A stretch of DNA of 42,636 nucleotides from a virus. Below, piece by piece: positions 22,317 to 42,636 of the stretch. The notes under the pieces are model-generated. The model was not told the DNA's origin, did not search any database, and saw nothing but the letters and a program-made list of their open reading frames with translations. The first letter of the stretch is position 1; each line of letters starts with the position of its first letter. Made by a program: the position numbers and the translations under genes. The stretch is taken from the IMG/VR virus record IMGVR_UViG_3300030116_003614, positions 1 through 42,636 of that record, one strand, 5' to 3'.

Positions 22317-22751
22317 TTAATTAATCTTTTTTGCTACAGATGATCTTTGTTCTTCCCAACTATCAATCAGCTTTCCAAGTTCATCTGGTGTTAGTTCAGA
22401 TAAGTTCTTATTGTTTTGCTGATCTAGTGCATTCTTTCCCAGATCACCAGATAATTCTAATACAGTTCTTGAAGCTGACACTCTTGCAGAAGCTGGAGCA
22501 TCTGGATCTTGCATAACATCTTTTAATGTTTGGACGGCAATATTGGACAAGTCCGTTTGATAAAGCGTTTGTCTTGTTTGCCGAATAATAGCTATTACAG
22601 ACGGATTTCTAGTAAGTGAATAAGCTGATTGTTTTGGATAGTCGTAACCAGATAATCTTGCCGATTCTGTGGGATTTTTTCCCTCGACTACTAAGTAATG
22701 TACAAAATTATTTTGTTTTTCTGTAAGGTTTTGTTTGGTTACTTTGCTCAT
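22317..22751 (-). CDS. terS: Terminase small subunit
   Basis: A 144-residue protein with the family signature LTEKQNNFVHYLVVEGKNPT ... SARLSGYDYPKQSAYSLTRNPSVIAII: the helix-turn-helix DNA-recognition region followed by an oligomerisation helix (VQTLKDVMQDPDAPASARVSASRTVLELSGDLG) and a Glu-rich tail. It recognises the packaging site and recruits the large subunit. AAGGA lies upstream of the ATG. It heads the late operon but lies about 9 kb from the large subunit gene, with all fibre and lysis genes in between. Confidence 0.88.
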   Translation of the reverse strand: MSKVTKQNLTEKQNNFVHYLVVEGKNPTESARLSGYDYPKQSAYSLTRNPSVIAIIRQTRQTLYQTDLSNIAVQTLKDVMQDPDAPASARVSASRTVLELSGDLGKNALDQQNNKNLSELTPDELGKLIDSWEEQRSSVAKKIN

Positions 22752-22888
22752 ACATAAATTCCTTATGATATCATTTTTTCCCAGATATTTAATTTAATGT
22801 ATTTTTTGTTTGATATAAATACAGAAATCCTGTACGCTTTTTTGTAGGTCGACAAGATCGACATAATTTAACTTACAGGAGCGAAACT
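22752..22888. promoter_or_regulatory. Divergent control region for late genes and plus-strand operon
   Basis: Lies between oppositely oriented genes. It holds CTGTACGC (22830-22837), a T-run, GTAG, and the dyad GTCGACAAGATCGAC (22848-22862, arms GTCGA/TCGAC). A related arrangement, CTGTACGGC, T-run, GTAGACATGAT, occurs at 32248-32277 in front of the repressor. A weak plus-strand promoter can be drawn as TTGTAG (22842-22847), 16 bases, TAATTT (22864-22869). The dyad overlaps its spacer and could be an operator. Confidence 0.45.
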
Positions 22889-23110
22889 ATGAAGTTAAAA
22901 GAAAAGCTTAAAATAAAAGATAAGTATTATTCTTTTTTAACTAAAAAAATTTCATTTGATCGTTTAGAAAGTGATTTAAACGCAATGGGATTTGAGATAT
23001 TTAATTTAGATAATCATACGATTACTTATAAATATCCAGATGAAGAAGCACAACTTCCAACAATAAAAGTGCAAGACAATTCAACAAGAATATTCAGAAT
23101 AACTATTTAG
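22889..23110 (+). CDS. Unknown 73-residue protein, first gene of accessory operon
   Basis: Begins with ATG 22889, preceded by ACAGGAGCGAAACT, the ribosome-binding motif used repeatedly in this operon. The N-terminus is a basic helix (MKLKEKLKIKDKYYSFLTKK), followed by an alpha/beta segment (DLNAMGFEIFNLDNHTITYKYP) ending RIFRITI. No family recognised. As promoter-proximal gene of an operon opposite the late genes, it is expected to be expressed early, but that is inference. Confidence 0.6.
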   Translation: MKLKEKLKIKDKYYSFLTKKISFDRLESDLNAMGFEIFNLDNHTITYKYPDEEAQLPTIKVQDNSTRIFRITI

Positions 23111-23119
23111 GTATCTGGA

Positions 23120-23335
23120 ATGAATGTAATTAACAAAGAACATTTTTTCCAACAAAAATGGTTATTAACATCAGTTGCTAGATCTTATTCAGTACTTGAT
23201 GAATTTAATAAGTCTTTCAAAGAGATTACCAAACAAACAACAAATGAAGATTTGATTATATCTGTTGCGTCTGGTGATTTACTTAGATTCATAAATAAAA
23301 AAATTCCAGGGGGTAAAAATGAAATCCAGAATTAG
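23120..23335 (+). CDS. Unknown 71-residue protein
   Basis: A mostly helical protein (FFQQKWLLTSVARSYSVLDE, FNKSFKEITKQTTNEDL). The ATG at 23120 has only a weak GGA upstream, 10 bases after the previous stop. The 3' end overlaps the next gene by 17 bases. No family recognised. Gene status rests on continuous packing with neighbours and the absence of any competing frame. Confidence 0.5.
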   Translation: MNVINKEHFFQQKWLLTSVARSYSVLDEFNKSFKEITKQTTNEDLIISVASGDLLRFINKKIPGGKNEIQN

Positions 23336-23549
23336 ACAACAAAGTATTTCATTACATAGAAAAGCTGACATATGTTCAATACTATCAATCTTTTCAAGCT
23401 TTATTGGTGTTGTTGGTGGTGTTTGTATTTCATTAATATTTTTAAATGAATTTATATTTTTAGGAATGTTAATGGGATTTGGGACACTTAGTTTAATTTT
23501 AATGGCGTTAGCTTTTATTTTTAACGCCAAAGCTTACAGGAGGTTTTAA
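23319..23549 (+). CDS. Small membrane protein, two transmembrane helices
   Basis: A 76-residue protein with a basic N-terminus (MKSRIRQQSISLHRK) and two hydrophobic helices at about 19-42 (CSILSIFSSFIGVVGGVCIS) and 46-70 (FIFLGMLMGFGTLSLILMAL), ending AKAYRRF. GGGGG lies about 7 bases before the ATG. Its stop overlaps the next ATG as TAATG. An inner-membrane protein of an accessory phage operon could act in superinfection exclusion, but there is no direct evidence. Confidence 0.62.
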   Translation: MKSRIRQQSISLHRKADICSILSIFSSFIGVVGGVCISLIFLNEFIFLGMLMGFGTLSLILMALAFIFNAKAYRRF

Positions 23550-23764
23550 TGCGAAATAATCCAGATGATTTGTCAAATCAACTAATTGCTAAAATTAAAA
23601 AATGGCTAAAAGATGAATGCAAAGCACATGACAAATTTGTAAAACGTGTTGAAAATGGAGAACACGCTATTGATATTTGCGATGATCCAGAAGTGTTTTA
23701 TGGTCGCAATGAATGTGCTTCATGTTTACTTCTACAAATAGAAAAATGGGAAAAAGGCCAATAA
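23549..23764 (+). CDS. Unknown 71-residue acidic protein
   Basis: Starts at ATG 23549 behind a strong AGGAGG, coupled to the upstream stop. The sequence is a helix (LSNQLIAKIKKWLKDECKAH) followed by an acidic loop (ENGEHAIDICDDPEVFYGRN) and a CASC-type cysteine pair (ECASCLLLQIEKWEKGQ). Four cysteines are present, but their spacing does not make a standard zinc finger. No family recognised. Confidence 0.6.
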   Translation: MRNNPDDLSNQLIAKIKKWLKDECKAHDKFVKRVENGEHAIDICDDPEVFYGRNECASCLLLQIEKWEKGQ

Positions 23765-23822
23765 CAAATACACCATGTACAACAGGTTTTATCCTGTTGT
23801 GCGTGGTTTATTTGATAAACCA
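23765..23822 (+). repeat. 58-bp double-hairpin element, copy 1
   Basis: Intergenic element nearly identical to 24453-24510 (one base differs). It holds two perfect stem-loops: arms ACAACAGG and CCTGTTGT around TTTTAT, then TGGTTTAT and ATAAACCA around TTG. No U-run follows, so it is not a simple terminator. It lies just upstream of an AGGAGCGAAAATATG translation start. Confidence 0.85.
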
Positions 23823-23847
23823 TAACCAAAATAACAGGAGCGAAAAT

Positions 23848-24033
23848 ATGAACGATTTACAAAAAAATATGTCTAAAGCTATTGATCAATATTTATTAGA
23901 CCAAAAGACTTGGAAAGATGCAGTTGATCATATTAATGACATTGTAAAAAAAGAAGCTAATTCATATAGCTTAGATGAAAAGAAGATGAATGACATTCTT
24001 CATAGTTGGACAATTGTATTGAGGGGGTTTTAA
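23848..24033 (+). CDS. Unknown 61-residue helical protein
   Basis: Start chosen at ATG 23848 because ACAGGAGCGAAAAT directly precedes it; a longer frame begins upstream across the hairpin element and is not credible. The product is helical and charged (MNDLQKNMSKAIDQYLLDQ, TWKDAVDHINDIVKKEA, YSLDEKKMNDIL). No family recognised. The stop overlaps the next ATG as TAATG. Confidence 0.6.
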   Translation: MNDLQKNMSKAIDQYLLDQKTWKDAVDHINDIVKKEANSYSLDEKKMNDILHSWTIVLRGF

Positions 24034-24452
24034 TGATTGAAAATAAAGTACAAGCATTAAAATTATTTCTTGATATTGATGACAATGATATTGAGGATAT
24101 TTCATGGACGGATAGTTTAGATCCGTTTACTTATGGCAATTCAGAATATTTTATTTTAACTGATGATGAAGCAGACGATAAAGCAAAAGAATATATTTTG
24201 GATACTGTCTGGGCATTTACACCAGAATTTTTAAGAAGTCATAGTGGAATAGATGAAAGCGTTTTTAAATGTTTACAAGAACAATGCGAAACGGCAAATG
24301 ATCCAATCCTTAGATTAATAAAAGATGTAGACCATTTTGTAAAAGATGCGATTGCTTGCGATGGAAGAGGTCATTTTTTATCTAGTTATGACGGCCAAGA
24401 GTCATATGAAAATTACGCTAATGAAACATTTTATATTTATAGAGTTAATTAG
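24033..24452 (+). CDS. Conserved acidic phage/plasmid protein
   Basis: A 139-residue protein starting at ATG 24033 after GAGGGGG, coupled to the upstream stop. It has motifs I recognise from a widespread uncharacterised family in phages and plasmids: SEYFILTDDEADDKAKEYIL, VWAFTPEFL, GIDESVFKCLQEQCETANDP and the C-terminal ACDGRGHFLSSYDGQE ... FYIYRVN. The family has no assigned function. The protein is strongly acidic. Confidence 0.72.
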   Translation: MIENKVQALKLFLDIDDNDIEDISWTDSLDPFTYGNSEYFILTDDEADDKAKEYILDTVWAFTPEFLRSHSGIDESVFKCLQEQCETANDPILRLIKDVDHFVKDAIACDGRGHFLSSYDGQESYENYANETFYIYRVN

Positions 24453-24510
24453 CAAATACGCCATGTACAACAGGTTTTATCCTGTTGTGCGTGGTTTATT
24501 TGATAAACCA
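24453..24510 (+). repeat. 58-bp double-hairpin element, copy 2
   Basis: Second copy of the element at 23765-23822, starting directly after the stop of the 139-residue gene and ending 27 bases before the next ATG. Both hairpins are conserved exactly; the only difference is one base before the first stem. After the element the sequence diverges for about 10 bases and then returns to an identical TAACAGGAGCGAAAATATG start region. Confidence 0.85.
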
Positions 24511-24536
24511 AATTTAAACTTAACAGGAGCGAAAAT

Positions 24537-24965
24537 ATGAATAAAGCATATGAAAAAGCAATTGCTTCAGCTCGATACTTTAGAAATAAAGGTGAGATCG
24601 ATATTTGGCATTGTGTATGGCATGAGGGTAAACCTTATGATTATCATTTGTTTGTAGATTTTGATTGTGAGCTAAACAAAGATATTTGTTTGATGGTTGT
24701 TTATAAAACCTACAAATTAAAAGATGGAACATATGACATAGATTGTAATGATTCTTTATATGTTCATCAGTTTAAAAATCTATCAAAAAAACAATTAGAA
24801 CATTTTCCAAGTGAATCTTGCGACAAATGTGGATCAACAGAACAATCAGTAAAAGATATGAAACAATGTTTTACTAATCTTTTATTGTGTGATGATTGCT
24901 ATACAGAAACAAGAATTCTAGTAGCTGATCATCTTGGCGTTAATTTACAAGATCTTAAATTATAG
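24537..24965 (+). CDS. Unknown protein with possible CxxC zinc site
   Basis: A 142-residue protein. The N-terminal 90 residues have a mixed alpha/beta pattern (YEKAIASARYFRNKGEIDIW, YDYHLFVDFDCEL, ICLMVVYKTYKL). Residues about 95-121 carry CDKCG and CDDCY pairs plus an intermediate Cys, a likely zinc ribbon. The C-terminal TETRILVADHLGVNLQDLKL is helical. Start from ATG 24537 behind AGGAGCGAAAAT. No family recognised; nucleic-acid or protein binding is a guess from the zinc motif. Confidence 0.62.
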   Translation: MNKAYEKAIASARYFRNKGEIDIWHCVWHEGKPYDYHLFVDFDCELNKDICLMVVYKTYKLKDGTYDIDCNDSLYVHQFKNLSKKQLEHFPSESCDKCGSTEQSVKDMKQCFTNLLLCDDCYTETRILVADHLGVNLQDLKL

Positions 24966-24975
24966 GAGCGACAAT

Positions 24976-25143
24976 ATGAATAATACAAGATCATATAACG
25001 ATCTGGAACAGGAAAACCAGATCTTATGGGAGTTCATACCTCAAAAATTGAAACAACAGGTTGAGCAACGAATTATGGATCTAAATCAAATTGATTTGGA
25101 AGAATGTATTTTAATAAAAACTGAGGAGCAACGAAATGAATGA
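24976..25143 (+). CDS. Unknown 55-residue acidic helical protein
   Basis: Start at ATG 24976, 6 bases after AGGAGCGA. The product is a Gln/Glu-rich helical protein (YNDLEQENQILWEFIPQKL, QVEQRIMDLNQIDLEECILI) with coiled-coil-like spacing and an acidic C-terminus. The 3' end overlaps the next gene by 8 bases. No family recognised. Confidence 0.6.
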   Translation: MNNTRSYNDLEQENQILWEFIPQKLKQQVEQRIMDLNQIDLEECILIKTEEQRNE

Positions 25144-25594
25144 CACTTTTTTAAAAGATCATGTCTATATGAATATACCAAAAAAATATAGCCAAGAATT
25201 AGAAGAATTGATTGGCGATATTAATAATGTATTAGAAAGCAAAATTGGAATGAGAATCTGCTATGACAAGAATGATAGTCATATGGATCATTCAACAAAA
25301 CCAGAAGAAGATTGTTTTTCTGGTTTTGCAATTTTGCGTGATGATCAAAATCAAAATGATGATATTGAAATACAACTTAAAAAGAGTTTGGCTTGTTTGT
25401 TGTACAGACAAGCACAACAAATGAATAAAAAAGAACTGCAAGAAGTTTTGTTTTTTTCAAAAGAGTCAACTGAGATATGGAGTCTTGAACAATGTCAAAA
25501 GCAGTATGTAAAAGATCAGCTTGGTTGGATAGAAGATAGCCATACAGTTTGGCAAGAAGAATGTAATGAAATTTGGGAGGTAATAAATGAGTAA
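25136..25594 (+). CDS. Unknown 152-residue acidic protein
   Basis: Starts at ATG 25136 after GAGGAGCAACGA. Helical and acidic throughout (KKYSQELEELIGDINNVLES, EQCQKQYVKDQLGWIEDSHT), ending in WQEECNEIWEVINE. The last segment resembles the start of the following protein in being Trp/Glu-rich. No family recognised. Its 3' end overlaps the next gene by 8 bases. Confidence 0.6.
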   Translation: MNDTFLKDHVYMNIPKKYSQELEELIGDINNVLESKIGMRICYDKNDSHMDHSTKPEEDCFSGFAILRDDQNQNDDIEIQLKKSLACLLYRQAQQMNKKELQEVLFFSKESTEIWSLEQCQKQYVKDQLGWIEDSHTVWQEECNEIWEVINE

Positions 25595-25886
25595 AAACAC
25601 ATGGGGATACATTTATGGCGATGAATGCGATGAGTTGTGGGAACATTTTGATCTGGCCAATAGGGATAAAAATGATCGCATGAAAGTTAAATTTATTGAG
25701 TATCAAACAGAAGAGGAAATATCAAATGATACAGGTCATAAAGAAATCATAAGCAGTTTTAAGCCTGTAGCAAAAGCTTTGCAAGATTATGTCCAACATG
25801 AATTAGATATCATCACGGAAAGCGAATGGTTTGACGATCTTGTTGAAAATAAAGTTAAGCAGCAATTACAAAAATCCAAACAATAA
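25587..25886 (+). CDS. Unknown 99-residue acidic protein, last gene of accessory operon
   Basis: Starts at ATG 25587 with GGGAGG 6 bases upstream, inside the previous gene's end. The sequence begins WGYIYGDECDELWEHFDLAN and continues with charged helices, ending KVKQQLQKSKQ. No family recognised. The operon's terminator follows 9 bases after the stop. Confidence 0.6.
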   Translation: MSKNTWGYIYGDECDELWEHFDLANRDKNDRMKVKFIEYQTEEEISNDTGHKEIISSFKPVAKALQDYVQHELDIITESEWFDDLVENKVKQQLQKSKQ

Positions 25887-25895
25887 TCAACATCT

Positions 25896-25924
25896 GGAGC
25901 AACGAATTAGTTGCTCCTTTTTTT
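25896..25924 (+). terminator. Intrinsic terminator of accessory operon
   Basis: Arms GGAGCAAC (25896-25903) and GTTGCTCC (25910-25917) enclose GAATTA and are followed by seven T. This is a textbook rho-independent terminator on the plus strand. It overlaps the last codons of the convergent minus-strand gene; the minus transcript has no U-run, so it terminates one direction only. Confidence 0.92.
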
Positions 25925-26263
25925 CATCATCTCTTTAATCTTTGACGCAAATCTTTTTATATATTCATAGCCAATTGATGCGTAACCACCATTATCGATA
26001 TAAGAATCTTCGTGCAACGGATTGTAAGATCTTCTAACAAGCTTTTGTATTTCGTTAAATGCAACAACATCTGTAGCCACGAATTGATTGGGTTTTCTCC
26101 AAGGTGCGTCTAAGAACAACTCCATCATCTTTGCCGTCTTTTCGATAACCTCCATAGGATCGCCATATTCATTGTTTCTTTTATTGGCCACAATGTCAGC
26201 AACTTTATGACAAAACTCCTCTCGTGGCGTTATATCGCTTTTAAAATGGGATTTCATCTTCAA
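25907..26263 (-). CDS. DUF6378-like protein
   Basis: A protein of 118 residues from TTG 26263 (AGGAGG 5 bases upstream) or 116 from ATG 26257. The sequence NNEYGDPMEVIEKTAKMMELFL, DVVAFNEIQKLVRRSYNPLHEDSYIDNGGYASIGYEYI matches the phage family DUF6378, small helical proteins with a MazG-like metal-binding pattern. A nucleotide-related role has been suggested for such proteins but is not established. It is the last gene of the early minus-strand operon, and its start lies inside the acidic tail codons of the gene before it. Confidence 0.72.
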   Translation of the reverse strand: MKMKSHFKSDITPREEFCHKVADIVANKRNNEYGDPMEVIEKTAKMMELFLDAPWRKPNQFVATDVVAFNEIQKLVRRSYNPLHEDSYIDNGGYASIGYEYIKRFASKIKEMMKKRSN

Positions 26264-32267: not shown

Positions 32268-32295
32268 TAGACATGATTTCCGATTTGTATATTAT
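32268..32295 (+). promoter_or_regulatory. Sigma70-like promoter for repressor
   Basis: TAGACA (32268-32273) and TATTAT (32290-32295) with a 16-base spacer, one mismatch each from consensus and the same spacing as the divergent promoter. The repressor ATG is about 47 bases downstream. The upstream CTGTACGGC plus T-run part (32248-32264) recurs in the control region at 22830-22847. Confidence 0.6.
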
Positions 32296-32308
32296 AAGGA
32301 TCTACAAA

Positions 32309-32325
32309 TGCATAAAATTTATGCA
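32309..32325. promoter_or_regulatory. Perfect palindrome, candidate repressor operator
   Basis: TGCATAAAATTTATGCA is a perfect inverted repeat of 8 bases per arm around one central base. It lies in the leader between the repressor promoter and its start codon, a classic place for autorepression. I saw no second exact copy. Confidence 0.55.
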
Positions 32326-32341
32326 AAGCGAAAGGAAAATT

Positions 32342-32761
32342 ATGCCAACTGCAAAAGGTAAATCGCCAATAAGTGGCGTAACTACAGATGTCGATTTATC
32401 TGTCAGAGCGATAAGAAAAGATGAGTTTGCAAAAAGATTATATGCTTTATTACAAGAAAAAGATATGTCGCAAAGTGAACTTGCAAGACAATCAAAGTTA
32501 GGTAGAGATTCTATATCTCAATATATTAGAGCTATAAATGTACCCTCACCTAAAAGTTTAAAAAAAATAGCCGATGTGTTCGGATTAAAGCCTGTAGAAC
32601 TTTATCCTAATTACGAAGCAGCAGCTGTCGAAGAAGAGTTGCCAGAAACAAGCTTTAGATCTGTAACTGGAGATCCAGATCATATGTGGGTAAGACTGAA
32701 CATTAAGCTAAAAAAACCACAAGCTGTAAAGATTATGAGTATTATTCATGGTGGTGATTAA
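32342..32761 (+). CDS. CI-type repressor candidate, XRE-family HTH
   Basis: A 139-residue protein starting at ATG 32342 behind AAAGGAAAA; an upstream extension of 23 codons crosses the promoter and palindrome and is unlikely. Residues about 26-88 form an XRE helix-turn-helix (FAKRLYALLQEKDMSQSELA, KLGRDSISQYIRA, SLKKIADVFGLKPVELYP). The C-terminal 45 residues (DPDHMWVRLNIKLKKPQAVK) are short and lack a LexA-like peptidase domain, so induction by RecA-driven self-cleavage is unlikely. It would maintain lysogeny from the divergent control region. Confidence 0.78.
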   Translation: MPTAKGKSPISGVTTDVDLSVRAIRKDEFAKRLYALLQEKDMSQSELARQSKLGRDSISQYIRAINVPSPKSLKKIADVFGLKPVELYPNYEAAAVEEELPETSFRSVTGDPDHMWVRLNIKLKKPQAVKIMSIIHGGD

Positions 32762-33062
32762 CGAAAAGACTTTGCTTACGCAAAAGCAAGCTTCTCTTTT
32801 GCTCAAAGTGTCGATAAAAACGATATACAGACTTAGACAACAAGGCAAGCTTACAACAATTAAAATTGGTAAAAGCGTAAAATTGAAAAGGAGCGACATT
32901 GAATGGCTGATAAAACAAAAGGAAATAGATCTCTTCCACCAAGGTTATGTAACAAAACAGAAGATAACGGATATTACTATGTTCTGTTCTCACAAAACGG
33001 AAGAAGTCGTAAACAGAGTTTACGGACAAAAGATCGCCAAGAAGCTGAAGTTAGGTTTTTAG
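32748..33062 (+). CDS. Excisionase/AlpA-like HTH protein overlapping integrase
   Basis: A 104-residue frame. Residues 8-62 (LLTQKQASLLLKVSIKTIYR, LRQQGKLTTIKIGKSVKLKR, SDIEWLIKQK) are a typical winged HTH_17/MerR-type excisionase domain. Excisionases usually end there, but this frame continues for about 45 more codons, overlapping the integrase by 160 bases in another frame. It overlaps the repressor stop by 14 bases. It would direct integrase toward excision. The functional end of the protein may be the basic tail encoded in the overlap. Confidence 0.72.
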   Translation: MVVINEKTLLTQKQASLLLKVSIKTIYRLRQQGKLTTIKIGKSVKLKRSDIEWLIKQKEIDLFHQGYVTKQKITDITMFCSHKTEEVVNRVYGQKIAKKLKLGF

Positions 33063-34006
33063 GCTGGTTAGAGCAAAGACAAAAAGACATTATATCAATG
33101 ACAACATCTGATCCAACAATAGAAAGTTGTATTGAATTTTGGTTAGAACAACAGGTCATAAGATTAACACCTGGCATTCAAACAAGGTATAAATCTTTAG
33201 TTAAAAATTTACTTGCGTATTTTGGTCAAAAAACAGTTGGAGAAATACAAAGGCAAGATTCACAAAAATATTTTTTGCTTAGACAAAATGGAAGTATAGG
33301 AAAAACAAAAGCAACTAACTCAACAATACAATTAGAATTAGGAGTATTGCGTACTTTACTAAACTTTATGGTTAGAAAAGTAGAACCTAGACAAAGACGC
33401 ATTGACGCTAAACTTTTGCCTTACATTGAATTACCAGAACCATCTTTGCCTAGAGATCGTGTCATTACAAAAGAAGAAGAAGAAAAATATTTAGATTTTG
33501 CTATGAATGGAAATTATAATGGAGTTGGCGTAAGGCCATCTAATCGTGTTCATCGTATGCAAATTTTTTTGGTATTAGCTATTGAGACAGCAGCAAGGAA
33601 ATCTGCCATACTTAATTTAAAATGGTCTATGATTGATTTTACAAAAGGTCTTATAAATTTTTTACCAGATACTGAGCATCAATCACACAAAAGACGACCA
33701 ACAATACCGATGTCTGATCTGCTAATAAATTTTATGAAAAAAGTATATGAAGAAAAAGTTAATGATTATGTACTTACTAAAACAACAGATGTTAAATCTG
33801 GCTTAGATCGCATCAATAAATTACTTGGAATAAAAGGTGTAATACCACACACTTTTCGGCATACTTGGGCAACAAGAGCAGCTGAAGATGGAGTATCAAT
33901 GAAAGTGATAGCAGATTTTATGGGAGATACTGAAAAAACTGTAAGAGAAAATTATTTACATCTGTCTCCAGATTACCTTAGATCAGCTATAAATCGACAA
34001 AAATAG
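32903..34006 (+). CDS. int: Tyrosine recombinase integrase
   Basis: A 367-residue integrase, start at ATG 32903 behind AGGAG. The N-terminal arm-binding strand region (NGYYYVLFSQNGRSRKQSLR, TKDRQEAEVRFLGWL) is followed by a core-binding domain (85-175) and the catalytic domain with Arg232 (TAARKSAI), Lys263 region (HKRRPTIPM), HTFRH (His316, Arg319) and Tyr351 (ENYLHL). The usual box III His in LGH is Asp342 (MGDTEKTV), a departure from consensus. It recombines the attP-like region directly downstream with a bacterial site. Confidence 0.92.
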   Translation: MADKTKGNRSLPPRLCNKTEDNGYYYVLFSQNGRSRKQSLRTKDRQEAEVRFLGWLEQRQKDIISMTTSDPTIESCIEFWLEQQVIRLTPGIQTRYKSLVKNLLAYFGQKTVGEIQRQDSQKYFLLRQNGSIGKTKATNSTIQLELGVLRTLLNFMVRKVEPRQRRIDAKLLPYIELPEPSLPRDRVITKEEEEKYLDFAMNGNYNGVGVRPSNRVHRMQIFLVLAIETAARKSAILNLKWSMIDFTKGLINFLPDTEHQSHKRRPTIPMSDLLINFMKKVYEEKVNDYVLTKTTDVKSGLDRINKLLGIKGVIPHTFRHTWATRAAEDGVSMKVIADFMGDTEKTVRENYLHLSPDYLRSAINRQK

Positions 34007-34707: not shown

Positions 34708-37700
34708 TTATTCATTTGGTGTCTTATACTTCTTTGATGGTCGCCCTCTCTTGCCACGGATATATTTTTCTCCGTAGATAAGTTCTAGTAAATCGTTTAC
34801 TCTTGCACGTTTAAAATCTTCAGATGACAAATACATTAAACCTGGCGCACCTATTAAAGCTGTTGGTGGAGACATAGGTATTAATGCGTATCCAGTAGAT
34901 AAAACTGGATTTACAGTTAAGTTCCATAATCCTACTAAAGCATTATATTCTGACGCTAATGTATTTTCGCTATTATTAATGTTAAATCCATACTCGATAA
35001 TAGGCTCTAAATTTTGTGCTGCATATCCAGCTGTACCAATTAATGTGTTAGCTAAATCTCTTTGATATTTTAATCCTGTAACCATTTGGTAAAATGGATC
35101 AAACGCACCTGTGAATCCAGATCTTGCAAAAGCTAATGGGAACAAATAATCTTTAACAAACTTAACTGCATCTTTATCGTTATCTTCCCATTCTCTATCA
35201 AATCTTTCTTCGTTAAAAATTAATTCTCTAACAGTTGATACAAGAAAATGACCAGCAAACAAAGTCATAACAGCTGGTGCAATACTTGCTGTAACATATG
35301 CTGTTGCATCTAATGTCGCTTTCTTTTTTGACGCACCTAATTCTTTTGATATTTTATATTCTCTTCCAACTTTTCTTGCCATTCCTTTTAAAACTTTATC
35401 TTGGAAAGAATATATAAATGAAGTTATACCATATACAATTCTTCCTAATGGATTTTCTGCCCATAATGGTCTATCTGCTATTCTTGGATCTTGTATTGTT
35501 TGATCTGTAAATCTTTGTATAGCGACAGCCAACTGCAATCCCATATCACTATATTGACCAGCATCATTCATAATGTCTGATAGTTCTGGTAACTTTGTTT
35601 TACCTTTTACCCTTGCTCTTTTTCTTAACCTTGTAGATGTAAAATCATTAAAGTCTAAAATATAATCTGCAAACTGATCTATTGTTTTATCTTTTACACC
35701 AAAATCATTTAATACTTTTTTTGCTTTTAATTTTTGTCTATCGCTTGTTGGATTCTTATATTCATAAGCCATCTCACTTATAAATTGAAATCCTATTGCA
35801 GCTGCTGATCTTCTTTGTGCATTTGTCATTCCTGTAAGTTTTGTTTTGTAAAAAAACTTTTGTGTTAATCTTTGTAAATTAGGATTATCTACAAACGCAC
35901 CACCTATACGATTTGTTAATATATCGCCAACTTCTGGATCATCAATAACACCTAAGATTCTTGCAAATTGTTGTCGCAATCTGACATCTTCTTTATTACC
36001 ACCTAATTTTCTTATGCCAGGAAATTCTTGTAATGTTTTTATAAAAGCCATCATGCCTTTGGCTGGACTTTCTGAAGTAATAGCTGTGGTAAATGGCTCT
36101 GCAATAGAAGCTATAGGCGCTCTTACTAATAATGTAATAGACATAATAGCAGATAAATAATTAGCAGCTTTATCTCCAGCCATGCCAAGAGATCTGTTTG
36201 ATCTAGATTTGCCTGTAATAAAATCAATTGTTTTAGCAAATCGATCAGCGTCTTTTGGATCTACTGCTAATTGTCTTAATCTTCTTTTAACTAAATATTC
36301 TATATAATCGGTGTATTCATCTTTAGGTATTCTACCCTCTTTATCTTCTTGAGGTATTTTGTTTTTCCCAAATCGTCTATTAAACTCTGCTCTTCTTGTT
36401 GCGCCTAATATGTATTGCTGTATGTTTTCTACAGGATCTGAAATATAAAATTGTTCTAACAATGCATCTGCTTCTGGTGGTAGAGTTCTTTTCTTTGTAA
36501 AGTTACTTTGTGGCGTACCAACTAATGTATCTCCAACTTGTGCTTCTGTAATAGCATTGAACCAATTTGTAGAAGAAACAGTACCAAACAAATCTCGCAT
36601 TTGATCAAAAAATTCTGCGTATTCTTCCTCGATGTTTGCAATAGCTTCGTCTAATTCTGCTTGTGCATCTTCTGCTTTTTTTGTATCACCATCATCATTT
36701 GCTTTCTTAATAACAGCTTTAAGACCTTTTATTTTTTTCCATTTTGATGATTGCACAAAGTTTATATACTCTTCACTATTTACAATACCTAATCTAGAAT
36801 CTTGTATAAATTTTATAACAGCTTCCATTTGATCAAGACTAGCTACATTTATATCTCCAATGTCTTTATCAAAAATAACTTCGTAGACTTTTTTTGCTTG
36901 CTGAAAAAATTTTCTGCTTTGAGCATTCACCATTTCTTGATCAAGTAATCTTTGCATATAACCAGATTCTGCATATCCAATATCTAATCCAGATCCTCTA
37001 ATATATTCGTAAATTTGATTCATCAAATTACGCATTTGACCAGCTGCTTTCTTCACATTGTCTGGTATGTTTCTTTGATCTTTAATTTGACTTGTTAGTA
37101 TGCTTCTAAGCAATGAAATTTCGCCATCACTCATTCCATTTATATCATTTAAAGAAACAATTTTAGCTAATTGTAAACCAAACTTTCTTGCTTCTCTTGT
37201 TTGTGCATTAGAAAAATTATCGCCCTCTGCTTGTGATTGAAATTCACCACCTGTTTGTGTTGCTAAGTTTTGATACAAATATTTCATAACAGGATTGTTT
37301 GGGTATCGTTTCATAATAGATTTTAAGATACCTTGTTTTTGGTAAAACAATGGAGAAAACAATATATCTTCAATAGACTCAAAAAGCTTTCTGCCAAGTT
37401 TTTTTTGTCTTACATTTTCAGTTAATTGTTTTCTCTTTTCTTCCATACGTTGTTTAAATTTTTTATGATCTTGAATAGCTTTACGTTGGTCTGCAAATAA
37501 ACCTTTGCTTTCTTGTTCTTCAACTTCATACATTTTTCTAACATCTATTCGTGTATCTTCTGACGCTGTTTTGCCAACTTCTCCATCACCTAATGTTGTT
37601 TCTGCTGCAATTGCATCTATAAGATTTCTCATAGCACCAAATATCTCTAATCGATCTTCAGCTTTTGGAAAAGTCAACGCCATTCTTGAATCTAAAATTT

Positions 37701-40700
37701 TAGGTAAATCGTCAATGCTTGGATTGCTTAACTGTTCTTTTGTAACATTTAATTGTTCTAATGTTATTTGATAACCATCATTTGTTTTAGCTAAAAAGTC
37801 TGCGTCCATTTTATTTAAGGCCATATGGTATGCTGTAAAAGCTTCTCCAACTCTTGCAAACATTTCATATGAACTTGCCCAATAGTCTTTACTTTGCCCA
37901 TATATTGGTGCAAAAAATTCTGCGTCTTTTCTAAACTGTGTTTTGGCTACAGATCTTGCATTAGCTGATCCACCAAGTATTCTTTCTTTACGTTTTATTA
38001 ATATTTGTAATTGTTTTTCTGATTTTGTTTTAGCAATCTTATCATCAATTTGTTTTAGCTTTAATGCTTCATCTGCTTTGTCTTGAAACATTGCTCTTAC
38101 TAATAAAGCATAAGCATCTTTTACATTTGAAGCTTCTATCTCTGCGCCTTTTCTTGTTAATGCAGACATTAATGGGTGTGGATCATCTATGTTATCTACG
38201 TTTGCGTGTTTCTCGAACAAGTAATGATCTAAAGCATGAAACCATTCGTGAGCAAAACTGTTAACTCTTCTAGGCACAGTTATTGTTTTTGTGCTTGGAC
38301 TATAAGATCCATATGCTCCTAAAGTTTTAACCATATTAAAAGTTAATGTTCCGTCTAATCCAATAGCTTTGTATGGTAAATTAAAAAAATTAGCTAGTGC
38401 AGATAAATTATGAAATCCAGTTAACAGTTGATCGACAGCTTCTTTTGTATTGGCGTTACTAGACTTTGTAACTGACTTCATGCCAAATCTTTCGACAAAC
38501 ATTTTTTGCAATATTTTAAATTGTCTTTCGATTGGCAAGTTAACTGCAATATCTGGATCGACACCAGCTGCTTCAAACGCAGAAAATATTAACGCTGTTT
38601 TGTTTCTTTCTGCAAGTTTGTCGACAAGTGTTCCTGGCTTTTCGACTCTTTGGTTTTCGTAATCTTTTTCACTTTTAATTTGTAAACTTTCGGTAGCAGA
38701 TTCTTTGGTAGCTTTCCTATCTGGTTCAATGGTTGCATCTTTTAAATCCTCCTGTTTAGTGTCGAATTTCTTTTTTGCTGCTTCAAGTATATCAATAGCT
38801 TCAAAAAATTCCGACATTAAATTGTCTCTATAAGTATATGCTGCTGTTAAATAGGCATTACCCTCAAATCCTTTTCTAGAATTTGTTAGTTTTGATCTAG
38901 AAAATTTTTCTGACAAACCTTTAAATAAAGGTGAATTTTTTAATTTATTTAATTCTTCATCTAATTTATTTGTTGTTACTAATTCACCAACAGTTTTATC
39001 AATAATAACATATGTATCACCACTTATCTTTTTTAGTGTTTTAACGTATGACTTAAAAGTTCCATCTTTATGTTTTAAAAGATTTTGTTCTTTTGCTTCT
39101 TTGTAACCTGGAACTGAATTACTGTCTTTTATTTTTATAGTAACTGTAGTGTCAAAAGTAACATCTTTTAACTTTTCTTGTTTTGACTCATCTTCTTTTT
39201 GAACTTCATCACTTCTTGTCTTAGTATCGGTTCTTTGTTTTTGTTCGCTACTCTCAGTAGGCTTTGCATCATCAGATCTAGTGCTTCCTTTGAGGAGGTC
39301 TGGGGTTTCTTCGCCATCTAATTTGCTCCTTGCAGTTTTTACAACATCTTCTGGTGTTGTTGTATCTTCTAAAAATCCACCAACTTGTTTTCTTTCAGCT
39401 TCATCGACATAAAAACCTAACAACTCTGTCATGTATTTTTGTGATTTTGCTCTAGTTAATTTATCATTGTAAATTGTCTTTATTAATAACTCAACCATAG
39501 GATCAAGATTTTGTATTATGTCTGTTTGGTTGACAATATCACTAACAGCTTGATTGTTTTTTCTAGCATTAGATATTTTTAAGGCCATATCTGTTAATTG
39601 ATTAGTAATATCAAACTGTGCTGGAACTGTTCCATTGCTAATTAAAGATTTAAGATTTGCAAATCGAGGTGCTACATTAAGTAAAGCGTTTGATATAGCT
39701 TTGATGTTGTCATCTGTGCTGTCAATCATAACAGCTAATGCATCAGTATTTTCATATGCAGAAGCTAATATAGCGTTTTGTATTCTTGTAACGCCCTCTT
39801 TTGTTAAAACTCCATCTCTACTAATATTGCCTTGTTCGTTTTTAGTAACAACTTTATCGATAAAAGATTTTACAAATTGCTGGTTATCTAAACTTGTTAT
39901 GTCGCCACCTTTAAACTGCTGAATGATGTCTGAACCCATTGCTTGGCTATCTCTTTGCGCTCTTTCAGTAGCTGACATCTGAGCAATAATATCTCTATTA
40001 GATAAATCTGCTATTTCAACTAATTCTTCTTGCGTAATATTGTCGTCCAACACACGCACTAATATAGGGTTTTCTATCCCAGATAAATCTTGGCCTGTAG
40101 TTTCAGATATTCTGTTTTTATATGTATTGTAATTTTCTTTAAAATTATCTCTTGCTTCTTTTAATGATAAAACACGACCATTACCAGATATAATTGTTCC
40201 ATCTTTTGTTATAATCGGTGCGCCTGTATTTGTCGTTGGACTTTCTAACAATTGTTCTGGATCTAGATTTGACGCTCTTTCTTTAGATAAGACTTCTGAC
40301 TCTTTTAATGTTCTGTCTCTTGGCTGTAAATCACCAGACGCTGCTTTTAATTTATCTAAATCAACAATTATTGTTTTAACATTAACTTCTTTTTCAGAGT
40401 TTGGCGTTCTAATTTTCTTTACATCACTTTCGTAATCTACAACTTTATCTATATCTGCAAGCGTTTCTTTGCTTGTCAAAACCTGTTCAACTGTAGTTGT
40501 ATTAGCAATAATGCCATCTATGTTGTCCTTGATTTTATTTGCTTTATCTAACTCAGCTTGTGCTTGTGTTGTATCTTGATTTGTTTCTCTTGATAATTGC
40601 AATTCTAAATTAATTAAATCAATAATTTCATCTAATTCTTTTTTAGGATTTTCGCTTTTTACAATATCATCAATAACTACAACAATATCATCTGCGTCTT

Positions 40701-42201
40701 TTTTACCATCAAGATCTCTTGTAGCAATTGTAATGGTTTTATTATCAACTTCTCTTGTCTGGCTTGCAGACTCCTCGGAGGATTGAGAAGTCTGCAACTC
40801 TGAATCTTCCTCGAATGTAGCTTTTAATTTATCTACTACTTCTTTTTGTTTTTTAAATCTGTTTGCAGCAATAACATTTGTACCTATCTCTATTGCTCCT
40901 GTTGGGAATTCAGCTATACCCTCTAAGCCAACTTCTCCATAATTTATTTCGTCTTTTAATCCCTCTGCAACTTGTAAAAATTGTCCTGTAAAATCACCAG
41001 CACTTCCAAGTAATCCTTGTCCAGCTAATTCTGCTGTTGAAGCGCCAACTACTGCTTTGTTTGTTGCACCAGATTTTATAACTGGAGAAACTAATTTACC
41101 AGCTAAACCCATAGACAAAGCATCAAAAACTGCAACTGGTATACCATATAAAGCTGCACTCTTTTTTGCCTTTGCGTAAAAAGCTGGATCAGTAAGTTTA
41201 GCCTGTACAGCTTTTTCATCTGTCATATCTACGCCAGATTGCGCTAATTCTTGATTTATAACATCAGCATAGGTTGTACCAAATGTAACAATACCAGCTG
41301 CTCCAGCACCAACTAATGGACTACCAGCAACAGATCCAGTTATAAACACACCTAAACTAGCTAAAGATGATGGCAAAGATTCTCCAACAACACTTAATAC
41401 TGCTGATGGATTTGTAGCTATAGCAGATAAAATGTTTTTCCAACCTTTTGCATCTACAATTTCTTTTAAACCTTTTTGTATATCTGGTGGCTGTGTTGGA
41501 GATACTCTGTTTAATTCTGTTATAAGTTTTACAGTTTCAGAAGCATTGTTCCAACCAAGCGTCAAACCTAATTGTGCCATGCCTTGATTGGCTCTTACAA
41601 ATCCTCGTGTTAATGCATTATTAGGTAATCTTGAATCTTCTGGAGATAATAAATTAGATCTAGCTATTAAATCTATAGCAATGTTATCATCTACTTTAGC
41701 TTCTCCCATTGGAGTTTTAAGAAAAAAGTTTCCTGGCGTACCACCTACACCACTACTAACAGGATTTATATTTATGTTAGGCGTTGTAATAGCATCTGGC
41801 CTTGTAATAATATCTGTTAATCTTTGCTTTTCATTGTTAAAAGCAATGTCATCTTGTTCTGCTTTAAGTCTATTTTGTTCTGCAAGATTTTCGTTTTGTT
41901 TGAAATTAAAACTTCTACCTCTTTGATTTCTTGGATATTCAGTTCTTTTGTTCTTTAATCCTTGATCGCTAAATTCAACTGAATCTACAAATAAATTTTG
42001 TTGTACAGGCTGTTTTGTTTCTATTGGCTCTGGTTTAAAATTTGCGTTACCAAATGTATCAATACTATAATCGTTTATTCCATCACTTAATGTCGTTATG
42101 TTTGCTGGTGGAGCATTGTCTGTATTATAGTCTGATTTTTCGTCATCTTTGTTGTCAAACTTATAATTTGGATTGCCAAATGTATCGACACTATAATCCA
42201 T
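34708..42201 (-). CDS. Giant polyvalent/ejection protein (ParB-like and HEXXH domains)
   Basis: A 2497-residue protein at the T7 gp16 position. The N-terminus repeats DYSVDTFGN/DYSIDTFGN at residues 2 and 44, followed by Asn/Gln-rich linkers. Residues about 250-390 contain hydrophobic, Gly/Ala-rich segments (SSLASLGVFITGSVAGSPLV). A DdrB/ParB-like nuclease-type domain spans about 600-760 (ISGNGR at 671-676; ILVRVLD; ADLSNRDI). A coiled, charged linker follows. A zincin-like domain near 1250-1400 carries HEWFH at 1318-1322. The rest is long helical spacer, ending with amphipathic and hydrophobic regions (about 2280-2440). No lysozyme motif is seen. It probably enters the host with the DNA. Confidence 0.85.
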   Translation of the reverse strand: MDYSVDTFGNPNYKFDNKDDEKSDYNTDNAPPANITTLSDGINDYSIDTFGNANFKPEPIETKQPVQQNLFVDSVEFSDQGLKNKRTEYPRNQRGRSFNFKQNENLAEQNRLKAEQDDIAFNNEKQRLTDIITRPDAITTPNININPVSSGVGGTPGNFFLKTPMGEAKVDDNIAIDLIARSNLLSPEDSRLPNNALTRGFVRANQGMAQLGLTLGWNNASETVKLITELNRVSPTQPPDIQKGLKEIVDAKGWKNILSAIATNPSAVLSVVGESLPSSLASLGVFITGSVAGSPLVGAGAAGIVTFGTTYADVINQELAQSGVDMTDEKAVQAKLTDPAFYAKAKKSAALYGIPVAVFDALSMGLAGKLVSPVIKSGATNKAVVGASTAELAGQGLLGSAGDFTGQFLQVAEGLKDEINYGEVGLEGIAEFPTGAIEIGTNVIAANRFKKQKEVVDKLKATFEEDSELQTSQSSEESASQTREVDNKTITIATRDLDGKKDADDIVVVIDDIVKSENPKKELDEIIDLINLELQLSRETNQDTTQAQAELDKANKIKDNIDGIIANTTTVEQVLTSKETLADIDKVVDYESDVKKIRTPNSEKEVNVKTIIVDLDKLKAASGDLQPRDRTLKESEVLSKERASNLDPEQLLESPTTNTGAPIITKDGTIISGNGRVLSLKEARDNFKENYNTYKNRISETTGQDLSGIENPILVRVLDDNITQEELVEIADLSNRDIIAQMSATERAQRDSQAMGSDIIQQFKGGDITSLDNQQFVKSFIDKVVTKNEQGNISRDGVLTKEGVTRIQNAILASAYENTDALAVMIDSTDDNIKAISNALLNVAPRFANLKSLISNGTVPAQFDITNQLTDMALKISNARKNNQAVSDIVNQTDIIQNLDPMVELLIKTIYNDKLTRAKSQKYMTELLGFYVDEAERKQVGGFLEDTTTPEDVVKTARSKLDGEETPDLLKGSTRSDDAKPTESSEQKQRTDTKTRSDEVQKEDESKQEKLKDVTFDTTVTIKIKDSNSVPGYKEAKEQNLLKHKDGTFKSYVKTLKKISGDTYVIIDKTVGELVTTNKLDEELNKLKNSPLFKGLSEKFSRSKLTNSRKGFEGNAYLTAAYTYRDNLMSEFFEAIDILEAAKKKFDTKQEDLKDATIEPDRKATKESATESLQIKSEKDYENQRVEKPGTLVDKLAERNKTALIFSAFEAAGVDPDIAVNLPIERQFKILQKMFVERFGMKSVTKSSNANTKEAVDQLLTGFHNLSALANFFNLPYKAIGLDGTLTFNMVKTLGAYGSYSPSTKTITVPRRVNSFAHEWFHALDHYLFEKHANVDNIDDPHPLMSALTRKGAEIEASNVKDAYALLVRAMFQDKADEALKLKQIDDKIAKTKSEKQLQILIKRKERILGGSANARSVAKTQFRKDAEFFAPIYGQSKDYWASSYEMFARVGEAFTAYHMALNKMDADFLAKTNDGYQITLEQLNVTKEQLSNPSIDDLPKILDSRMALTFPKAEDRLEIFGAMRNLIDAIAAETTLGDGEVGKTASEDTRIDVRKMYEVEEQESKGLFADQRKAIQDHKKFKQRMEEKRKQLTENVRQKKLGRKLFESIEDILFSPLFYQKQGILKSIMKRYPNNPVMKYLYQNLATQTGGEFQSQAEGDNFSNAQTREARKFGLQLAKIVSLNDINGMSDGEISLLRSILTSQIKDQRNIPDNVKKAAGQMRNLMNQIYEYIRGSGLDIGYAESGYMQRLLDQEMVNAQSRKFFQQAKKVYEVIFDKDIGDINVASLDQMEAVIKFIQDSRLGIVNSEEYINFVQSSKWKKIKGLKAVIKKANDDGDTKKAEDAQAELDEAIANIEEEYAEFFDQMRDLFGTVSSTNWFNAITEAQVGDTLVGTPQSNFTKKRTLPPEADALLEQFYISDPVENIQQYILGATRRAEFNRRFGKNKIPQEDKEGRIPKDEYTDYIEYLVKRRLRQLAVDPKDADRFAKTIDFITGKSRSNRSLGMAGDKAANYLSAIMSITLLVRAPIASIAEPFTTAITSESPAKGMMAFIKTLQEFPGIRKLGGNKEDVRLRQQFARILGVIDDPEVGDILTNRIGGAFVDNPNLQRLTQKFFYKTKLTGMTNAQRRSAAAIGFQFISEMAYEYKNPTSDRQKLKAKKVLNDFGVKDKTIDQFADYILDFNDFTSTRLRKRARVKGKTKLPELSDIMNDAGQYSDMGLQLAVAIQRFTDQTIQDPRIADRPLWAENPLGRIVYGITSFIYSFQDKVLKGMARKVGREYKISKELGASKKKATLDATAYVTASIAPAVMTLFAGHFLVSTVRELIFNEERFDREWEDNDKDAVKFVKDYLFPLAFARSGFTGAFDPFYQMVTGLKYQRDLANTLIGTAGYAAQNLEPIIEYGFNINNSENTLASEYNALVGLWNLTVNPVLSTGYALIPMSPPTALIGAPGLMYLSSEDFKRARVNDLLELIYGEKYIRGKRGRPSKKYKTPNE

Positions 42202-42636
42202 TAATTTAATTCACTTTTAATCTGATTTACAATTGCTTTGGCTTGGTCGCTATCGTATCCAAAGTCTCGTATAATTTTTCTTTTTACATCTTCTTCACCA
42301 AATACGTTAAAATTTCTTTTTAAAAGATTATAAAAATATGCTGGAAACTTAAAATTACTGCTAAAAAATCCACTACCTATTTCAACAATTCCCTCTGAAA
42401 TCATTCTAGAATTTCTTTGAAATGCTTCAGTAAATGTTATTTGTCTTTTTTCGCCATTAGGTCTATTTGGATCTACAGGTACTCCATTATTAAAATCACT
42501 AAAAACTTGTTTCATAAATATATCATTTATTTTACTTCTAAACTTTGCACCAAAATCTTCGTAAGCAGCATTACTTTCGTACAGATTAAGAACAGCATCT
42601 TGTACCTGTTTAATCTTAGGCATTCCTTTTTTGTCT
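42045..42636. repeat. Right copy of diverged terminal redundancy
   Basis: Counterpart of bases 1-586 (see there). Gene order, start codons and the TAATG junction are the same in both copies; the right copy carries two extra codons in the giant gene. Removing one copy would give a circle of about 42.05 kb. Confidence 0.85.
42201..42636 (-). CDS. Internal virion protein, C-terminal part cut by window edge
   Basis: Open at the window end, this frame encodes the last 144 residues of a homologue of the 423-residue protein at 151-1422, beginning in the charged region (DKKGMPKIKQVQDAVLNLYE). About 15 of 140 residues differ, clustered around the YFYNLLKRNFNVFGEED segment. An internal ATG at 42623 is not the true start. 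It is most likely a strain variant of the same gene. Confidence 0.85.
   Translation of the reverse strand, partial: DKKGMPKIKQVQDAVLNLYESNAAYEDFGAKFRSKINDIFMKQVFSDFNNGVPVDPNRPNGEKRQITFTEAFQRNSRMISEGIVEIGSGFFSSNFKFPAYFYNLLKRNFNVFGEEDVKRKIIRDFGYDSDQAKAIVNQIKSELN

Follow-up and report, generated by a model that had tools for sequence, protein, structure and literature searches.

The plus-strand block at 22889-25886 of IMG/VR virus record IMGVR_UViG_3300030116_003614 is one version of a hypervariable cassette of small genes lying between the gene of the small terminase subunit (TerS) and a DUF6378 gene. The record, 42,636 bases long, is the whole stretch of DNA that was analyzed and is called the window here; its source is a marine temperate phage, a tailed phage with a repressor, an integrase and a terminase. 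The block holds ten open reading frames (ORFs), g1 to g10. Joints between its units carry hairpins, and the cassettes of related phages carry type II hammerheads or a second class of hairpin at their joints. We give an even chance to the proposal that this is an exchangeable small-gene cassette for anti-restriction or host takeover, whose mRNA is cut or punctuated at the unit borders. The cassette itself, its slot, the neighbor genes in the relatives and the RNA elements at the joints are observed, whereas we infer the mRNA cutting, the timing of expression and an anti-defense action of the ten proteins.

A hypervariable slot between the TerS and DUF6378 genes

Relatives of the large terminase subunit (TerL) and of TerS were collected from IMG/VR, and the regions upstream of TerS were compared. 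There were 78 regions including the window, and the 45 that reach DUF6378 were taken as complete cassettes, with L173 and the regions without a DUF6378 match left out. In the window, the borders of the cassette are as follows.

22317..22751, minus strand: TerS gene, left border, divergent from the cassette (phrog_51, E 2.5e-6); anchor of the comparison
25907..26263, minus strand: DUF6378 gene, right border, convergent with the cassette (PF19905, E 5e-10)

The same arrangement, a small-gene block divergent from TerS and convergent with DUF6378, was present in 45/45 complete cassettes. These were 1375-4278 nt long, with a median of 8 called genes and 37 different gene orders; since the simple in-house script used for gene calling recovered only 8 of the 10 window genes, the gene counts are minimum values. 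The 459 proteins of the 78 regions formed 152 clusters, including 82 singletons. L116 was the same strain as the window, and L119 was its nearest complete relative. TerS relatives were also found in SAR324 and Rhodobacteraceae metagenome-assembled genomes and a few others (9 loci).

Paired RNA elements in the window

The two largest gaps of the block, after g4 (83 nt) and after g6 (84 nt), contain 61-nt elements that are 97% identical to each other.

23762..23822, plus strand: RNA element A, consisting of the g4 stop codon TAA, a 21-pair hairpin (CAAATA c ACC..GGT t TATTTG) and then ATAAACCA
24450..24510, plus strand: RNA element B, consisting of the g6 stop codon TAG and the same hairpin and tail as element A

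The stems differ by a single change, from A-U in element A to G-U in element B, and the tail ATAAACCA of element A is complementary to the 3' arm of the hairpin. Folding energies were -30.5 to -31.2 kcal/mol, with z about -5 to -8 depending on the flanks; element A gave -30.5 kcal/mol, with z from -6.7 to -7.9. With 21 pairs and one C-U mismatch, each element forms a near-perfect duplex of about two turns, as looked for in an RNase III hairpin. The element sequence was found in one other viral contig, in two copies.

Hammerheads and class 2 hairpins in the relatives

Elements of the relatives were examined for the features of the type II hammerhead (RF02276), namely a core of GAAA, NUH and CUGANGA, three helices and an open stem II. 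They had these features, and the core letters were kept in alignment A5, in which the collection pattern itself demands them. A hammerhead model (R1), trained on 28 of these elements, was run on 79 sources (734 kb) and returned 38 hammerheads in 33 of them. Of the 38, 28 belong to the training set; every one is on the cassette strand and lies upstream of TerS. In independent Rfam scans, the gathering threshold was exceeded in 6 of 14 loci (L179, L177, L147, L183, L151 and L173) and in 2 of 13 further loci (L249 and L229); all 14 had an R1 match, the other eight being below the Rfam cut-off. The hammerheads mostly started on the preceding stop codon or no more than a few bases from it and ended 18-28 nt before the next called start, with some exceptions and some elements unplaced.

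The class 2 hairpin also starts at the stop codon. It was found in 21 loci, and 16 sequences were aligned. No Rfam match was obtained at gathering in the 10 loci scanned, nor in L168 at a lax threshold. The long stem and an alternative downstream hairpin were paired in 93.4% and 98.2% of cells, respectively, and two-sided changes occurred at 8 pairs of the long stem and 6 pairs of the alternative hairpin, five of these pairs lying in the upper stem common to both. L189 and L136 contributed much of this variation. The hairpins at L136 1672-1744 and L189 5301-5374 (minus strand) were the most divergent of the class, with arms changed together, and are the best starting points for a wider class 2 family. 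A class 2 DNA pattern gave 51 stretches in IMG/VR; among 30 inspected by eye, four were class 2-like (L261, L278, L289 and L294), and the remaining inspected stretches were coding or unrelated.

Hammerheads were present in 25 of the 45 complete cassettes, class 2 hairpins in 17, the window type in 2 and no element in 1 (L142); no cassette had both a hammerhead and a class 2 hairpin. ArdA stood directly behind a class 2 element in 7/8 loci, and the preceding hairpin of L136 matched only at E 0.52. Genes of cluster 6 followed a hammerhead in 4 loci and a class 2 hairpin in 6, so the elements look interchangeable. Apparently, the relatives fill one joint function either with hammerheads or with other hairpins, and the long-open question of what hammerheads do in phages can therefore be tested by swapping elements at one and the same joint. 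The RNA joints are the greater surprise of the locus.

Elements A and B were compared with these families. They were rejected as type II hammerheads (no Rfam hammerhead at a lax threshold; R1 unfiltered at no more than 5 bits), as known Rfam RNAs, and as class 2 hairpins by sequence (sequence and structure profile R2 of the class, best 9.5 bits, E 0.36, off the hairpins). In shape they may resemble class 2: a stem starts from the stop codon and a downstream segment can pair with the same 3' arm, though this second pairing is not significant by itself. When 12 or 15 nt were blocked at the 5' end of element A, mimicking a ribosome at the stop codon, the computed fold shifted to two adjacent hairpins.

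Anti-restriction genes in the slot

Representatives of 137 of the 152 clusters were scanned; clusters that include window proteins, and the shortest singletons, were left out. Pfam identified 10 families. One was ArdA (E 1.3e-25), and most of the other nine were domains of unknown function. PHROGs added the DNA methyltransferase phrog_757 (E 1.6e-53 for the representative) and the anti-restriction family phrog_2059, and NCBIfam gave nothing for the 137 representatives. ArdA is an acidic antirestriction protein that mimics DNA. Among the complete cassettes, 8 had ArdA, 28 had a methyltransferase-like gene, 31 had either and 5 had both. The phrog_757 methyltransferase-like family (L148:2519-3193:-), which has no Pfam match, was present in 34 of the 78 cassette regions and may be a divergent DNA methyltransferase.

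A fixed slot of exchanged anti-restriction genes is thus identified, and therefore the small proteins encoded there, above all the g6 family, are good candidates for new counter-defenses.

The g6 family

The preliminary description had singled out the 139-residue protein as the only member of a widespread family, and this held: g6 has a family of 48 IMG/VR loci. Relatives were found in 2 of 50,697 INPHARED records, Alicyclobacillus phage KKP_3916 (41.7%) and Pelagibacter phage Lederberg (30%), and six bacterial genomes with TerS relatives gave no g6 match. The best match of g6 was phrog_15770 (E 8e-6), and because that family has no assigned function, membership explains nothing on g6 yet. In Lederberg, L209, L226, L229 and L249, the g6 relative is part of a block of small genes, and the opposite strand carries a terminase gene that belongs to a different family. 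In L229 and L249/L250, whose terminases are of other kinds, g6 starts 26-31 nt past a hammerhead. Promoter-like TTGACA...TATAAT sequences were seen between small genes downstream of the g6 relative in L212, L213, L216 and L225, hinting at single genes with their own host-type promoters.

The family keeps a strong net negative charge, as a DNA mimic would (-20 in the 139 residues of g6; median -20, range -35 to -3 in 35 members). E38, Y39, L42, T43, D44, E46, A47, G111, E123 and Y136 were invariant in the 35 members. Because ten residues are invariant, the alignment points to a specific site for binding or catalysis and not just to charge. Structure prediction followed by a fold search had been proposed. 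The AF2 model of g6 was confident (pLDDT 96), but it had no solved-structure match: Foldseek against PDB gave nothing at E <= 0.001 (best E 1.9), a second comparison gave a best Z of 3.0, and a sequence-profile search of PDB gave nothing convincing. In BFVD, only phage proteins without assigned function were matched at E <= 0.001. The model of g9 alone was uninformative (pLDDT 48.7) and was not used. In line with the earlier idea of acidic DNA mimics, the charge of g6 is mimic-like, but the protein also has an invariant motif core, lacks similarity to the ArdA profile and gave no PDB fold match. ArdA (PF07275) has a charge density near that of g6, but no window protein matches its profile; for g6, identity with ArdA was rejected by profile (no Pfam match, HHalign probability 0.6%).

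Proposed explanation and alternatives

In the proposed explanation, accessory small genes would be exchanged in a slot of fixed position, where they diverge from the terminase genes and have their own sigma-70-like promoter, and their products would most likely disarm restriction or other defenses and adjust the host soon after entry. Structured RNAs would divide the cassette mRNA, each reaching from the stop codon of one unit to just before the next ribosome site. In the relatives, type II hammerheads would split the mRNA into messages of one or two genes. In the window, the hairpins after g4 and g6 would, on the simplest reading, be cleaved by a host RNase that acts on double strands, for example RNase III.

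Several results weigh against this explanation. The loci compared are related and non-independent, and no hammerhead or class 2 hairpin was found in the SAR324 and Rhodobacteraceae relatives (L197-L204), Lederberg or KKP_3916. Because neither R1 nor R2 matched elements A and B with filters off, position and shape alone link them to the elements of the relatives. Shuffled tails equalled their alternative second hairpin in 239 and 116 of 2000 cases, so it is not significant by itself, and a terminator scan listed both window hairpins as terminator-like. On the protein side, 14 of the 45 cassettes have neither ArdA nor a methyltransferase, and the window, L116 and L119 belong to these; no window product matches an anti-defense family. 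The anti-defense or host-takeover role suggested by the preliminary description is consequently favored by position, given the content of the slot in relatives, but not by the window's own proteins. Likewise, the comparison of gene content, also suggested there, placed an ArdA or methyltransferase gene in the slot of most relatives but neither in the window. Anti-restriction is a property of the slot and would extend to the window by its place in it.

If the hairpins act in a way other than as RNase III sites, they might act as attenuators or as weak intrinsic terminators, reducing the expression of g5-g6 and g7-g10. Their terminator-like form, 15 pairs followed by TTATTTGATA, suits this idea, which we nevertheless consider unlikely: most of the T-rich tail belongs to the 3' arm of the extended stem, a clean 7-T tract is seen at the true terminator at 25896, and in the relatives the class 2 elements lack a T tract and the hammerheads are not terminators. 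We also doubt that the 61-nt repeats are recombination joints by which units such as g5-g6 are swapped or lost, with the RNA fold secondary. The repeat spans exactly the stop codon to the end of ATAAACCA while the flanking sequence differs, and the genes downstream of class 2 elements vary (clusters 12, 6, 38, 113, 130 and 30), as recombination joints would predict. However, the hammerhead and class 2 sequences diverge widely between loci with their pairs kept, which suits selection on RNA rather than shared DNA, and the sole other carrier found has both copies. Least probable in our judgment is that the stop-codon hairpins (window type and class 2) constitute a new phage RNA device replacing the hammerhead. 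This would be a new self-cleaving ribozyme whose two adjacent hairpins are arranged as in the type II hammerhead, or else a translation-tied switch. In the switch version, the terminating ribosome would cover the 5' arm, the freed 3' arm would form the second hairpin, and cutting would be tied to upstream translation; because that hairpin is not significant in the window alone, this version is offered as conjecture.

The cassette as a whole might be a lysogenic-conversion locus, expressed from the prophage to exclude other phages or help the host, instead of acting early against restriction. The phage is temperate, and the cassette opposes the early and late lytic genes, as lysogeny genes do. 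Because it runs against both lytic gene blocks, we take prophage expression as a serious rival, with something like one chance in a few. However, ArdA and methyltransferases would be expected in a slot that acts at DNA entry, and g6 relatives occur in terminase-adjacent small-gene blocks of other phages, that of Lederberg with a TTGACA promoter-like sequence directly upstream.

Comparison with known systems

In the early region of phage T7, long hairpins between genes let host RNase III cut the polycistronic mRNA. Cutting of the window mRNA would be analogous, but the window hairpins differ from the T7 sites in standing at two joints only, starting at stop codons and being duplicated at 97% identity. 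Hammerheads clustered around genes have been described in prophages, beside ardA in Agrobacterium and Legionella (Perreault et al., 2011; PMC3088659). In that paper, long transcripts were proposed to be cut into gene-length mRNAs, and activity was reported in vitro and, for the Agrobacterium ribozyme, also in vivo in E. coli. Those ribozymes border single genes or short blocks next to ardA, like those in the cassettes of the relatives, which agree with the proposed cutting. Compared with them, the present elements sit in a single fixed slot beside the terminase genes throughout a phage group, the window joints have another hairpin and no hammerhead, and the relatives add a second non-hammerhead class. 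A literature search of PMC-licensed papers found nothing on the cassette or on stop-codon hairpins standing in for hammerheads. The ardA-flanking hammerheads were already known, and the two non-hammerhead element types appear new.

Organization and expression of the operon

The preliminary description of a ten-gene plus-strand operon was borne out: all ten ORFs were there, 93.8% of the block was coding, and the joints were mostly tight or overlapping (9, -17, -1, 83, -1, 84, 10, -8 and -8 nt from g1 to g10). As had also been stated, the only other plus-strand block of the window is the lysogeny block at 32273-34006, from the helix-turn-helix (HTH) repressor to the integrase, and the operon ends in a clean terminator. 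The block 22889-25886 was near-identical in a second contig, IMGVR_UViG_3300030451_002405, and an INPHARED DNA search with the whole block gave no match. The control features are listed below.

22810..22838, plus strand: predicted sigma-70-like promoter (-35 TTGATA, 17-nt spacer, -10 TACGCT)
22848..22862, plus strand: inverted repeat GTCGA-CAAGA-TCGAC between the promoter and g1, an operator or a hairpin of the 5' untranslated region
25896..25917, plus strand: intrinsic terminator of the cassette, GGAGCAAC-GAATTA-GTTGCTCC-TTTTTTT, an 8-pair stem followed by 7 T

The same promoter layout (TTGATT/17/TACGAT) was seen by eye in L117-L121; a generic promoter scan did not list 22810..22838. At the site of the inverted repeat, GTTGAT...ATCAAC was seen by eye in L119, L120 and L122-L125, so the arms change together. 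As read from the sequence, this supports one cassette transcript made by a host-type RNA polymerase, and early expression of the cassette is plausible. An operator common to the cassette and repressor promoters was considered and set aside (best score 52, on the minus strand of the repressor intergenic region, equalled by 18/1000 shuffles).

The claim of uniform AGGAGCGA start sites was correct for g1, g5, g7 and g8 but not for the other 6 of 10 starts. The motif occurred 7 times in the window against 0.47 expected. Starts with AGGAGCGA are those neither overlapping nor close behind an upstream gene of their own unit, and at most starts without it the gene overlaps or almost touches its upstream neighbor. 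The motif therefore marks four units, g1-4, g5-6, g7 and g8-10.

Products of the ten genes

The genes, all on the plus strand, are the following.

22889..23110, plus strand: g1, 73 aa, pI 8.9, no family
23120..23335, plus strand: g2, 71 aa, pI 9.1, no family
23319..23549, plus strand: g3, 76 aa, two-helix membrane protein, hydrophobicity judged from sequence
23549..23764, plus strand: g4, 71 aa, 4 Cys, with a relative in cassette L119 (phmmer 6.7e-7 to L119_6)
23848..24033, plus strand: g5, 61 aa, of a family held by close relatives' cassettes (cluster of 8 loci including the window; phmmer 2.1e-5)
24033..24452, plus strand: g6, 139 aa, charge -20, widespread phage family
24537..24965, plus strand: g7, 142 aa, 9 Cys (DUF7685 E 0.0013, below cut-off)
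24976..25143, plus strand: g8, 55 aa, pI 4.45
25136..25594, plus strand: g9, 152 aa, charge -15, no family
25587..25886, plus strand: g10, 99 aa, charge -9, no family

The products had been described as mostly acidic, which applies strongly to g6, g8, g9 and g10 (pI 4.1-4.7) and mildly to g4, g5 and g7 (5.6-6.0), but g1-g3 are basic (8.9-10.4). The range of 55-152 residues given earlier is set by g8 and g9, the membrane protein noted before is g3, with two likely helices, and the two Cys-rich proteins are g4 and g7. The C-terminus of g7 is a probable zinc-binding region. INPHARED searches made with g1, g7, g9 and g10 found no relative of any of the four.

Other features of the window

The C-terminal ~140 residues of the first gene (151-1422) recur, slightly altered, as a separate ORF at 42201-42623, read as a partial gene duplication or a record-end effect. 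This ORF adjoins the gene at 34708-42201, which encodes a 2497-aa polyvalent protein with ddrB-like ParB and LPD1 domains. The polyvalent protein is probably packaged and injected, and it likely belongs to the same anti-host strategy as the cassette.

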